DNA of 39,373 nucleotides from NCBI GenBank assembly GCA_913053655.1, contig CAJXFW010000006.1, forward strand, positions 1 through 39,373, given 5' to 3'. Shown here piece after piece: positions 31,251 to 38,046 of the stretch. This DNA comes from an uncultured Thiogranum sp. Its GTDB lineage: Bacteria > Pseudomonadota > Gammaproteobacteria > DSM-19610. The stretch's first letter is position 1. Every line of letters starts with the position of its first letter. The translations under genes and the position numbers were made by a program. The notes beneath the pieces are model-generated. The model did not search any database. It was not told the origin of the DNA and saw only the letters and a program-made list of their open reading frames with translations.

Positions 31251-32099
31251 TCATAGCCCCAGCTTGTTCCAGATGGCTGTGGTTGGACCGGCCTGGTTCA
31301 TGGTATAGAAATGCAGGCCGGGTGCCCCGGCATCCAGCAGTGCCTGACACATTTGCGTGATAATTTCTTCACCGAAGGCCCGGATGGATGCCTTGTCATC
31401 GCCATAGGTCTCCAGCCGCTTGCGGATCCAGCGCGGGATTTCAGCACCGCACATGTCGGAAAACCGTGCCAGCTGGGTATAGTTTGTGATCGGCATGATG
31501 CCGGGCACTATGGGCAGGTCAATAGCACGCTTTTCACACAGATCAACAAAATTGTAGTAGGCATAGGGATTATAGAAATACTGCGTGATAGCGCTGTCGG
31601 CACCGGCCTCGATCTTGCGTTTGAAATTATCCAGATCAGCGTCGGCGTTGCTCGCCTGGGGGTGGAATTCAGGGTAGGCGGCGACTTCAATATGGAAGTG
31701 ATCACCGGTTTCGGCACGAATGAATTCCACCAGTTCGCTGGCATAGCGGAATTCCCCCGGTTGCCCCATGCCTGATGGCAGGTCACCGCGCAAAGCTACT
31801 ATGTGGTGAATACTGTGCTGTTTGTACAGGTTCAGAATGTCACGAATACTGTCTTTTGTGGAACCCACGCAGGACAGGTGTGGTGACGCCTCAATGCCCG
31901 AGTCACTCTGAATTTCACAAACCGTTTCGAAAGTGCGCTCCCGGGTAGAGCCTCCGGCGCCAAAAGTGACCGAAAAGAAACGCGGCTTGAGTTTCGCCAG
32001 CTCGTCGCGGGTGTTGCGAAGTTTGGCCACACCCTGTTCTGTTTTAGGCGGGAAAAACTCAAAGCTGTAAACGCGTGGGTGTTCTTTTTGTGATTCCAT
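31251..32099 (-). CDS. metF: 5,10-methylenetetrahydrofolate reductase
   Basis: A 282-residue FAD-dependent TIM-barrel enzyme that makes 5-methyltetrahydrofolate for methionine synthesis. Motifs: YSFEFFPPKTEQGVAKL at the start, VTFGAGGSTRERT, HIVALRGDLP and AITQYFYNPYAY. Length is as in E. coli MetF. It lies 50 bases after ahcY, and that gap contains only a REP half-site. With metK and ahcY it completes part of the activated methyl cycle. Confidence 0.97.
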   Translation of the reverse strand: MESQKEHPRVYSFEFFPPKTEQGVAKLRNTRDELAKLKPRFFSVTFGAGGSTRERTFETVCEIQSDSGIEASPHLSCVGSTKDSIRDILNLYKQHSIHHIVALRGDLPSGMGQPGEFRYASELVEFIRAETGDHFHIEVAAYPEFHPQASNADADLDNFKRKIEAGADSAITQYFYNPYAYYNFVDLCEKRAIDLPIVPGIMPITNYTQLARFSDMCGAEIPRWIRKRLETYGDDKASIRAFGEEIITQMCQALLDAGAPGLHFYTMNQAGPTTAIWNKLGL

Positions 32100-32132
32100 G
32101 AGGCTCTATTCCCCGCCGCTTAAAGCGAAAAT

Positions 32133-32145
32133 TGTAGGAGCGGGC
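32133..32145 (+). repeat. REP half-site TGTAGGAGCGGGC
   Basis: Thirteen bases equal to the conserved head of the REP-like elements at 793 and 37270 (minus strand), between ahcY and metF. The palindromic second half is missing, so it is a remnant or a chance match. Confidence 0.45.
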
Positions 32146-32149
32146 AGTA

Positions 32150-33568
32150 TCAGTAACGATAATGATTCGGTTTGTATGGGCCTTCCGTCGGAATGCCAAG
32201 ATACGCTGCCTGTTCCGGCGTCAATTCAGTTAGTTGTGCGCCGATCTTCTGCAAGTGCAGGCGTGCAACTTTTTCGTCCAGCTGTTTCGGCAGCACGAAG
32301 ACTTCATTTTTGTAGCTCTCGCCGTTGCTGAACAGCTCCATCTGTGCCATCACCTGGTTGGTGAAGGACGCCGACATCACAAAGCTCGGGTGACCGGTCG
32401 CACAGCCCAGGTTAACCAGACGACCCTTGGCCAGAATGATGATCTTCTTGCCGTCCGGGAAGATCACATGATCCACCTGTGGTTTGATTTCTTCCCACTG
32501 GTATTTTTCCAGCGAGGCGATATCGATTTCCGAATCGAAATGGCCGATGTTGCAGACAATAGCTTCGTTCTTCATTGCCGCCATGTGGTCATGGGTAATT
32601 ACACTCATGTTGCCAGTAGTGGTGACAAAGATATCACCGACACTGGCAGCTTCGTCCATGGTGACCACGCGATAACCTTCCATTGCTGCCTGCAAAGCAC
32701 AGATCGGATCGATTTCGGTGACCAGCACGGAGGCACCCATGCCACGATAGGCCTGGGCGCAACCTTTGCCTACGTCGCCGTAGCCCAGTACCACGCAGAT
32801 CTTGCCGGCAATCATCACATCGGTGGCGCGTTTGATGCCGTCAAGCAGCGATTCGCGACAACCGTACAGGTTGTCAAACTTGGACTTGGTAACCGAGTCG
32901 TTAACGTTCATGGCAGGGAACAACAGGTCACCGGCTTCCTGCATCTGGTACAGGCGGTGTACACCGGTAGTGGTTTCTTCGGTGACGCCCTTGATGCTGT
33001 CGGCCATTTTCTGCCACATACCCGGATTGTTTTCCAGGTTGCTACGCAGCACGTTGAGAATGGCTTTCCATTCTTCGTTATCGTCGTCCTTTGTAGCCGG
33101 CACGGCGCCGGCCTTTTCGAACTCGACACCCTTGTGGATCAGCAGGGTGGCGTCGCCGCCGTCGTCGAGAATCATGTTGGGCATCTGCCCGTCCGGCCAG
33201 GCCAGGGCCTGCTCGGTGCACCACCAGTATTCCTCAATGGACTCGCCCTTCCAGGCGAACACCGGCACTCCCGTCACGGCGATCGCGGCTGCAGCCTGAT
33301 CCTGGGTGGAGTAAATGTTGCACGAGGCCCAGCGTACGTCGGCACCCAGATCAACCAGCGTTTCAATCAGCACGGCGGTCTGGATAGTCATGTGCAGACT
33401 GCCGGTGATGCGCGCGCCCTTGAGCGGCTTCTGCGCACCAAATTCCTCGCGCAGTGCCATCAGGCCGGGCATTTCGATTTCCGCAATACTGATTTCCTTG
33501 CGGCCCCAGTCGGCCAGCGAAATATCGGCGACTTTGTATTCGTTACTGGAGTTGAGAACAGCGTTCAT
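32150..33568 (-). CDS. ahcY: S-adenosylhomocysteine hydrolase
   Basis: A 472-residue NAD+-dependent enzyme that splits SAH into adenosine and homocysteine. Seen: substrate-domain [29 protein letters not shown], the Rossmann motif [24 protein letters not shown] and the C-terminal KPNHYRY that closes the neighbouring active site. It has the ~40-residue insertion in the catalytic domain (around [20 protein letters not shown]) found in proteobacterial long forms. AAGGGAG precedes the ATG by 7 bases. A SAH riboswitch and strong promoter lie upstream. Confidence 0.98.
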
Positions 33569-33578
33569 AGTGCATCTC

Positions 33579-33597
33579 CCTTAAAGGTCACTTAAGG
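33579..33597 (-). promoter_or_regulatory. Hairpin covering part of the ahcY ribosome site
   Basis: CCTTAA (33597-33592) can pair with TTAAGG (33584-33579), whose last bases are part of the AAGGGAG ribosome site. It directly follows the 3' strand of the riboswitch pseudoknot, so it may be the expression platform that ligand binding opens. Inference from pairing only. Confidence 0.4.
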
Positions 33598-33598
33598 T

Positions 33599-33670
33599 CG
33601 AGCGCAGTTGTTTTGAGATGCTGGTTTCTCCGAGCCTGGCGGGCATCGCCCGCTGCAGCGCCCCTCAGGG
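33599..33670 (-). promoter_or_regulatory. SAH riboswitch of ahcY
   Basis: The element has the SAH riboswitch layout: P1 CTGAG (33668-33664) with CTCGG (33634-33630), conserved GGGCGCTGCA, P2 GCGGGC (33653-33648) with GCCCGC (33644-33639), the conserved CCAGGCTCGG, then the pseudoknot strand GCGCTC (33605-33600) pairing with GGGCGC (33663-33658). It binds S-adenosylhomocysteine and raises ahcY expression in known cases (Rfam SAH_riboswitch). Position directly before ahcY agrees. Confidence 0.94.
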
Positions 33671-33695
33671 AACACAGCTGAATTTAAGGCCTGCG

Positions 33696-33723
33696 ATTAT
33701 AGGGTAGCGGGGACAGATTTCAA
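33696..33723 (-). promoter_or_regulatory. Sigma-70 promoter of ahcY
   Basis: TTGAAA (33723-33718), a 16-bp spacer and a perfect TATAAT (33701-33696). Transcription would start about 33689, just before the riboswitch. The -35 box is the exact centre of a perfect palindrome, so a palindrome-binding protein would control it. Confidence 0.75.
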
Positions 33724-33733
33724 ATCTGTCCCC
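33709..33733. repeat. Perfect 25-bp palindrome GGGGACAGATTT-C-AAATCTGTCCCC
   Basis: Twelve-base perfect arms around one base, 7 bases after the metK stop. Such GGGACAGATTT palindromes occur as dispersed repeats in several gammaproteobacteria (recalled), so it is probably a REP-like unit. It could also stall transcripts leaving metK, though no T-run follows. It supplies the ahcY -35 box. Confidence 0.65.
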
Positions 33734-33739
33734 TGTGTC

Positions 33740-34906
33740 CTAGGCCCCGGCATCCGCCCGCAGGGCTTCGGCCTTGTCGGTATGCTCCCAGGTGAAGCCT
33801 TCGTCCTCACGGCCAAAGTGACCGTAGGCTGCCGTTTTCCGGTACTTGATCTTGTCGGTGTTGAGCAGATCGAGCATGGTGAGAATACCATACGGGCGCA
33901 GGTCAAAATGTTCGCGCACCAGCCCGGTAATGCGTTCATCGCTGATCTTGCCGGTACCGAAAGTCTCGACCATGATCGAGGTCGGATCCGCCACGCCGAT
34001 GGCGTAAGAGATCTGGATCTCGCAGCGTTCCGCCAGCCCGGCGGCAACGATGTTCTTGGCAACGTAACGTCCGGCGTAGGCTGCGGAGCGATCCACTTTG
34101 GACGGATCTTTGCCGGAGAAGGCACCCCCACCGTGACGTGCGGCGCCGCCGTAAGTGTCGACAATGATCTTGCGTCCGGTCAGCCCGGCGTCACCCATCG
34201 GGCCACCGATCACAAAGGCACCGGTGGGATTGATGTGATATTGCGTATCAGCCGTCAGCCATTCACTCGGCAGCACCGGCTTGATGACGTTTTCCATGAT
34301 CGCCTCTTCCAGTTCCTTGTGGTTGATGTCCGGCGCGTGCTGGGTGGACAGCACCACGGCATCGATCGCCACCGGTTTGTTGTCCTGGTAGCGGAAAGTG
34401 ACCTGGCTCTTGGCATCCGGCCGCAGCCAGGCGAGTACACCCGTGCTGCGCATCTCGGACTGGCGGTGTACCAGCCGGTGTGCGTAGGTGATCGGCGCGG
34501 GCATCAGCACGTCGGTTTCGTTGGTGGCGTAGCCAAACATCAGGCCCTGATCGCCGGCGCCCTGATCCTCGGGTCTGGCGCGATCCACACCCTGATTTAT
34601 ATCAGGTGACTGTATGCCAATAGCCGTCATGACCGCGCAGGTTTCGTAGTCAAAGCCCATTTCGGAACTGGTGTAACCGATACCCTTGATAGTATCGCGC
34701 ATGACCTGTTCGTAATCGGGTTTGGCCGTGGTGGTGATTTCGCCGGCGATCATGACCATACCGGTCTTGAACAGGGTTTCGCAGGCCACGCGGGCGTGCG
34801 GGTCTTCGATCAGGATGGCGTCGAGTATGGCATCTGACACCTGGTCAGACATCTTGTCCGGGTGGCCTTCAGACACTGACTCTGATGTAAAAAGATGTCC
34901 ACTCAT
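33740..34906 (-). CDS. metK: S-adenosylmethionine synthetase
   Basis: A 388-residue enzyme making SAM from methionine and ATP. Motifs: [13 protein letters not shown] (H15, K18), the [12 protein letters not shown] hexapeptide region and [19 protein letters not shown]. Start: ATG at 34906, with AGGAGT 8 bases before it; the seven codons upstream overlap the leader. The gene has its own strong promoter and a leader of about 127 bases with an intrinsic terminator. It opens the metK-ahcY-metF-rsmE series; ahcY has a separate promoter. Confidence 0.98.
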
Positions 34907-35033
34907 TTTTTCTACTCCTGAAAACAAAAAACCCGCATGGCGTCAGCTCAAGCGGGTTTTGGAAATTTGTCGTCTTTCCTCGCTTTAGCCGTATTTGTAT
35001 AGCGCCCGCAATCTGAATTTCAAATCGGCGCTT
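34907..35033 (-). promoter_or_regulatory. metK leader RNA, attenuator or riboswitch-like
   Basis: About 127 bases from the predicted start of transcription to the ATG. Stem A: AGCGCC (35032-35027) with GGCGCT (35006-35001), loop of 20. Middle hairpin: GGAAA with TTTCC around 34977-34960. Then the terminator. GCGGG (35009-35005), next to and partly within the stem A region, can pair with CCCGC (34956-34952) of the terminator, so stem A/terminator and an antiterminator exclude each other. It does not match the SAM-I, -II, -III or SAM/SAH consensus I can recall. A SAM- or methionine-linked signal is inferred from the gene. Confidence 0.6.
34925..34960 (-). terminator. Intrinsic terminator inside the metK leader
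   Basis: AACCCGC (34958-34952) pairs with GCGGGTT (34936-34930), followed by TTTTGTTTT, ending about 20 bases before the metK ATG. A terminator placed between a gene's own promoter and its start indicates attenuation. Its 5' arm could instead pair with GCGGG at 35009-35005. Confidence 0.75.
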
Positions 35034-35040
35034 GACGGTG

Positions 35041-35070
35041 ATTATAGAGGGTGTCCCCGGCCGCGGTCAA
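35041..35070 (-). promoter_or_regulatory. Sigma-70 promoter of metK
   Basis: TTGACC (35070-35065), an 18-bp spacer and a perfect TATAAT (35046-35041). Start of transcription expected about 35033-35034, which places the leader's first hairpin at the very 5' end of the RNA. Confidence 0.8.
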
Positions 35071-37314: not shown

Positions 37315-38046
37315 CTATTGCCTGGCCTTTTTTGAAACAGAGAATAATGCGGTTATACCCGACAGAAACAGCCAAAATGCAGCCGGCAAGGGAACGACAA
37401 CATCGAAGCCATTGACTGCTGCCGACCAGCTCTCATTCCATTCGACATTCCCGGTTGAAGACGTGTTGGTTGCCGCATTCAGAGATATAATGCCGCTCAG
37501 TCCGGTGCCGTACCCGGCTATGGAGAGAAGGCTGGTGGGATCTATGCTGCCCGTGAAATCGATGTTGCTATTGTCCCATCCTAACTGGTCAATTGCGCCA
37601 CCAACAATCAAGTTGCCATCCAGCAGTGTGCCGTTAGCTGAAGTAGCGGTTACACTACCTGGAAACCCTACAACTCTGCCATTCATGCTCAAGCTACCGC
37701 TTATCAGGTTGCCGGTACTATCTATTGTCAGGCTCATCAAGAACGCTTTATCGCCGCCTGTAGCTGAGAGTACCGGAATGGAGGTGCTGCCAAACTGGCT
37801 TGAGAATGCAGGATCAAGCTGCCCATCAAGGAAAGACACATTACCCACCGTGCCGCTGAAGGACAGTACACCTGTGCCAGCACCAGTATTGTATGCGTAA
37901 TCAATCGGGTTGGTGCTCGTTACGGCGAAATCCGGTCCGCACCCACTCGCAAATGTGCAGACGGTACCCAATAGTGCCGCGTTCGCCGAACTCACAAAGC
38001 CCAGGAAACCCCACAAACCAACCAGCAAAAATCTGCTTGCTCTCAT
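37315..38046 (-). CDS. VPLPA-CTERM sorted secreted protein
   Basis: A 243-residue protein. Signal peptide 1-23 (ends SSANA), a glycine/serine/threonine-rich beta-strand body without recognised domain, then a C-terminal sorting signal: VPLPA (218-222), hydrophobic AFWLFLSGITALFSV and a basic end SKKARQ. Exosortase/archaeosortase-type enzymes cleave near this motif, and the product then goes to the outer surface or biofilm matrix. GGAGGAGAAA precedes the ATG. Weak similarity to the N-terminal half of the neighbouring secreted protein (GT/GV-rich motifs such as YNTGAGTGVLSFSG) hints at common origin. Confidence 0.85.
   Translation of the reverse strand: MRASRFLLVGLWGFLGFVSSANAALLGTVCTFASGCGPDFAVTSTNPIDYAYNTGAGTGVLSFSGTVGNVSFLDGQLDPAFSSQFGSTSIPVLSATGGDKAFLMSLTIDSTGNLISGSLSMNGRVVGFPGSVTATSANGTLLDGNLIVGGAIDQLGWDNSNIDFTGSIDPTSLLSIAGYGTGLSGIISLNAATNTSSTGNVEWNESWSAAVNGFDVVVPLPAAFWLFLSGITALFSVSKKARQ

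Follow-up and report, generated by a model that had tools for sequence, protein, structure and literature searches.

The metK leader in the window, as we call the whole analysed stretch of 39,373 nucleotides, is very probably a SAM-II riboswitch joined to a transcription-attenuation platform, in which SAM would trigger termination ahead of the gene. Its place as a divergent member of the known SAM-II class (SAM_alpha, RF00521) is well supported by sequence, and the RNA probably senses SAM. An apparent orphan leader becomes, with this assignment, a testable SAM switch.

Architecture and class of the metK leader

The leader spans 35070-34907 on the minus strand, and the physical details given for it by the sequence-only reading, namely a promoter, a 5' hairpin, a second hairpin and an intrinsic terminator, are borne out. 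The promoter has 11 of 12 consensus matches, and shuffled sequences are expected to give 0.4 promoter-like sites. Transcription is predicted to start at about 35034, which places the beginning of the P1 hairpin at approximately the third transcribed base. The features, all on the minus strand, are the following.

35041..35070, minus: sigma-70-type promoter TTGACC-18-TATAAT (TTGACC 35070-35065, TATAAT 35046-35041, 18-nt spacer)
34977..35034, minus: putative SAM-II aptamer core (model R1, 79.2 bits)
35001..35032, minus: P1 hairpin, AGCGCC (35032-35027) paired with GGCGCU (35006-35001)
35026-35021 and 35011-35008, minus: GAUUUG and UUGC of L1, the loop of P1, from fold and alignment
34980..34989, minus: 3' tail GCUAAAGCGA, strand of the P2 pseudoknot (P2b with UUGC of L1, P2a with UC at 35016-35015), with predicted SAM contacts (PMC3764141)
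34944..34991, minus: predicted antiterminator, CGGCU-A-AAGCG (34991-34980) with CGCUU-G-AGCUG (34954-34944)
34961..34979, minus: GGAAA/UUUCC hairpin, enclosed by the predicted antiterminator helix
34926..34960, minus: intrinsic terminator AAAACCCGCUUGAGC...GCCAUGCGGGUUUUUU (dG -16.8)
34915..34919, minus: Shine-Dalgarno sequence AGGAG, read from the sequence
33740..34906, minus: metK, methionine adenosyltransferase, 388 aa (TIGR01034, 611 bits; cut-off 309)
33593..33672, minus: SAH riboswitch before ahcY (RF01057, 58.3 bits; GA 37)

The 5' stem AGCGCC/GGCGCU, the GGAAA/UUUCC hairpin (34979-34975 / 34965-34961) and the terminator CCCGC...GCGGG with its U-run are all part of the MFE fold, and the ATG at 34906 follows the U-run by about 20 nt. 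The fold of the full leader has an energy of -40.7 kcal/mol, compared with -28.6 (sd 3.3) for shuffled sequences (z -3.6), and none of 200 shuffles is as good.

Membership in the class, conservation of the pocket, covariation, gene context and the alternative pairings are computational results. In a permissive scan, RF00521 matches the leader end to end (34968-35041, model positions 1-79 of 79) with 26.2 bits and an E-value of 4e-4. This score lies under the gathering cut-off of 36 bits, which is a curated threshold and not a structural feature, and the leader is therefore missed by default Rfam scans; such a scan of the window returns the SAH riboswitch before ahcY as its only match. The leader had been called undescribed and without the consensus of known SAM classes. 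Neither statement holds, as it carries the SAM-II core with all published pocket nucleotides. The distinction that had been drawn from the element before ahcY was correct, the SAH riboswitch being a separate element with another fold and ligand. Matches of the leader to Trp_leader, rimP, isrK, P9 and CRISPR models are weak, well below the respective gathering scores, and were rejected.

Pocket conservation and distribution

In the SAM-II crystal structure 2QWY, the pocket positions described as fully conserved are G8, U10-12, U20-21, G22, C23, G42, C43, U44, and A45-47 (PMC3764141). All of these nucleotides are present in the window leader, and they are kept in 107-108 of 108 aligned copies. 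The alignment, used for both conservation and covariation, consists of 108 matches to R1, a covariance model built from the core sequences of 39 relatives with P1 as the sole structure included. P1 is paired in 96.8% of cells, and the check for covariation of the 5' stem in relatives, which had been proposed earlier, revealed compensatory changes at five of the six pairs across the 108 sequences.

The pseudoknot is likewise retained. P2b pairing is invariant (108/108), whereas P2a has a C-G pair in 107 of 108 copies and outer pairs that covary (UA, UG, AU, CG, GC), a signal found even though P2a is absent from R1. Shuffling never reached the observed values (0/500), and slid controls were 34-57% paired, compared with 94%. 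P2a is short (2-3 bp), with outer pairs unpaired in 16 and 41 of the 108 copies. A different pseudoknot, AUUUG/CAAAU (35025-35021 with 34997-34993), was dropped because its pairing hardly varies and the arrangement published for SAM-II (UUGC with GC-U-AA, UC with GA) gives the better fit and shows covariation.

A second RF00521 copy (34.0 bits) is located in the same genome between a purF-like gene and metZ, which encodes O-succinylhomoserine sulfhydrylase. The element lies directly 5' of metK in 12 relatives of the same genus, each time as a sub-threshold RF00521 match, and nearly every genome of the genus has one or two sub-threshold copies, sited before metK or metZ. Most SAM-II elements of the class are missed by default Rfam scans: RF00521 is above its cut-off in two of 56 relatives (the class relatives G033, 42.1 bits, and G027, 40.8 bits), whereas R1 matches 179 of 369 class genomes at an E-value of 0.001 or better, R1 E-values being rough, and does so mostly before metZ and metK. 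The class is a GTDB class that merges beta and gamma groups, and all counts cover both together; as the sequences are related, the counts are not of independent events. R1 recognises all 18 Rfam-positive SAM-II elements, 12 of them at E < 5e-5 and the weakest at E 0.02.

The gene 3' of 145 elements is of the metZ type in 84 cases, metK in 24 and metN in four; inspection of the sequences adds metF, metX and a homocysteine methyltransferase-like gene among the remainder. The elements are thus found where SAM-II is expected, 5' of methionine and SAM genes (metK, metZ, metN, metF, metX). Only four of the 32 named metK loci have the element, and control of metK is therefore patchy.

The search of named plasmids returned only Legionella adelaidensis (before metN) and Paracoccus seriniphilus; on the small plasmid of the former, an unannotated SAM-II element precedes a metN-like gene (L165 2498-2557). 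One genome (G264, loci L263-L268) holds 10 SAM-II-like copies, several of them arranged in tandem pairs. The genes that follow these copies (an HD/RelA-like hydrolase, unknown ORFs) have no obvious link to methionine, and a mobile element has possibly spread the copies. In L120, L137, L138, L192, and L258, SAM-II-like elements likewise occur in tandem, at a spacing of about 100 bp, some of them before non-methionine genes, such as an AAA-ATPase-like gene in L192.

Alternative pairings of the 3' tail

Upon SAM binding, the 3' tail of SAM-II RNAs forms P2 with L1. In the metK leader, the tail GCUAAAGCGA would have two alternative uses once P1 has been transcribed, the P2 pseudoknot or an antiterminator. 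With SAM bound, the tail would pair with L1 (UUGC, UC) to form P2 around the ligand, leaving the terminator 5' arm CCCGCUUGAGC free to pair with the 3' arm GCCAUGCGGG and to stop transcription before metK. Without SAM, CGGCUAAAGCG of the tail would instead pair with CGCUUGAGCUG of the terminator 5' arm, no terminator would form and metK would be made. The antiterminator could coexist with neither P2 nor the terminator. Because one strand is shared by the SAM-bound pseudoknot and the antiterminator, SAM would trigger termination, and the outcome would be end-product feedback on SAM synthetase; the metZ copy would act likewise.

Several results are consistent with such a platform. An intrinsic terminator is located just 3' of the element in 21 of 24 metK and 73 of 84 metZ leaders; in the other three metK leaders, none was detected by the criteria used. 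For transcripts of 91-99 nt, in which the terminator 3' arm is still incomplete, the MFE fold has CGGCUAAAGCG and CGCUUGAGCUG paired, leaving P1 intact and enclosing the GGAAA/UUUCC hairpin, which is absent from a minority of the metK leaders in the genus. The duplex between the tail and the terminator arm has an energy of -14.4 kcal/mol in the window metK leader; mean values are -11.9 kcal/mol for metK and -12.4 for metZ leaders, compared with -5.8 and -5.7 for shuffled arms. In MFE folds, computed with programs that ignore pseudoknots and kinetics, 95 of 111 truncated leaders have the tail paired with the terminator arm, and 6 of 21 truncated metK leaders do not fold into the antiterminator. 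Swapping terminator arms between leaders hardly changed the pairing and gave no clear antiterminator covariation, so that the antiterminator rests on complementarity and not on covariation. With the tail constrained by ligand contacts, covariation of tail and arm is not expected.

In Sinorhizobium, the SAM-II elements of metA and metZ are repressive when SAM is high, at metZ probably through termination; metZ mRNA is then lower and terminated leader RNA higher (PMC9373788). The direction that we infer for the leader, in which high SAM would turn metK off, agrees with Sinorhizobium metZ, and SAM binding and termination in vivo belong to the same inferred scheme.

The sequence-only reading had proposed mutually exclusive terminator and antiterminator forms, built on GCGGG beside the first stem and CCCGC of the terminator. 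The regulatory leader with such forms is supported; the antiterminator proposed for it is disfavoured. In a variant that keeps the SAM-II aptamer, the switch would be operated by the P1 3' strand GCGGG pairing with CCCGC, and P1 itself would thus be opened in the ON state. CCYGC does occur in the terminator arms of 88% of leaders, as opposed to 7% of 95 control terminators taken from retrieved loci, and Leyn et al. (2014) speculate that GC-rich regions 3 and 4 meet a terminator stem (PMC4239095). Against this, five-pair runs between the GCGGG strand and the terminator arm are common by chance, occurring in 97% of leaders and 76% of controls. The complementarity exists, yet it is energetically about 9 kcal/mol worse than tail pairing (-18.7 for the forced GCGGG/CCCGC antiterminator vs -27.9 kcal/mol at 91 nt), and we regard this variant as unlikely.

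Relation to described RNAs

With SAM-II (RF00521; PDB 2QWY), the metK leader has in common the H-type pseudoknot, the pocket letters GAUUU, UUGC and GCUAAA, the met-gene targets and a terminator platform like the one predicted for metZ of Sinorhizobium. It differs in its sub-threshold score, in the GC-rich P1 GCGCC/GGCGC, in UCAG before UUGC in L1, and in P2a, which has 2-3 bp in the leader and is longer and GC-rich in Rfam-positive alpha-proteobacterial copies. SAM-V (RF01826) has the SAM-II ligand core in common (PMC2704228), but it is without the final 3' pairing element and its stems differ in length; its model gave no match to the metK leader up to E 10. The SAH riboswitch (RF01057), found in the same gene cluster before ahcY-metF, differs in fold and ligand.

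Leyn et al. (2014) report SAM_alpha from Rhizobiales and Rhodobacterales only, with metK not among its targets (PMC4239095). No paper naming metK as a SAM-II target was found in the open literature searched, the coverage of which is incomplete. The same study describes a separate, novel metXZ RNA of beta-proteobacteria, located before metX or metZ, with no ligand given and no tie to SAM-II; it consists of six conserved blocks that pair into a stem and a pseudoknot, with a terminator behind them (PMC4239095). This description fits the metK leader RNA, and metZ and one metX target were found in our census. On the basis of the text description and of RF02424, the metXZ element is probably the same RNA, which offers a candidate ligand for it.

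RF02424 (Bp2_287, annotated as a Burkholderia sRNA) matches the plus strand at 34926-35068 of the window, opposite to the SAM-II core. The reverse complement of its consensus reads GCGUC-GAUUUGAU..CAGCUUGC-GGACGC..AGCUAAAGCG, which corresponds to the SAM-II core, with C-G replaced by U-A in P1. Of the 33 RF02424 matches listed for the class, 32 are antisense to R1 matches. From its sequence, RF02424 looks like a wrong-strand model of the SAM-II/metXZ element. We find it fairly likely that a large beta/gamma-proteobacterial SAM-II branch, nearly all of it below the Rfam threshold, accounts for the metXZ orphan as well as for the misoriented Bp2_287 family, brings metK under SAM-II and uses the SAM-binding strand as the antiterminator.

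The readings that depart from a SAM-sensing leader fare poorly. A SAM-II-like fold with a changed ligand (SAH, methionine or other) could explain why letters beyond the published pocket, UCAG in L1 and C/A before UUGC, are near-invariant and specific to this group; we consider it very improbable, as all published SAM-contact nucleotides are retained, the element precedes genes for the synthesis of SAM and methionine, and SAH has its own riboswitch at ahcY. Slightly less probable still is a constitutive terminator, or an attenuator worked by an RNA-binding protein, with no metabolite ligand. The strong terminator hairpin would suit it, but the deeply conserved pocket sequence and the covarying pseudoknot recur in many families and before several unrelated methionine genes. 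The lowest probability falls to an antisense sRNA encoded independently on the plus strand in place of a cis leader: the RF02424 match there reaches 33.8 bits against a gathering score of 70, the minus strand is the one that suits the promoter, the U-run of the terminator, the pocket motifs and the order of the genes, and the RF02424 consensus is the SAM-II core in reverse complement.

In the window, metK, the SAH riboswitch, ahcY and metF lie in a row (31251-34906), a single SAM-cycle cluster that contains both a SAM-II and an SAH riboswitch. This suggests that the SAM synthetase and SAM-cycle genes of the cluster are under two different riboswitches. An SAH riboswitch 3' of metK is also present in L010, L037, L038, L039, and L167. 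Elsewhere in the window, the product of an ORF at 37315-38046 (minus strand) ends in a C-terminal VPLPAAFWLFLSG...KKARQ tail that resembles a PEP-CTERM sorting signal.
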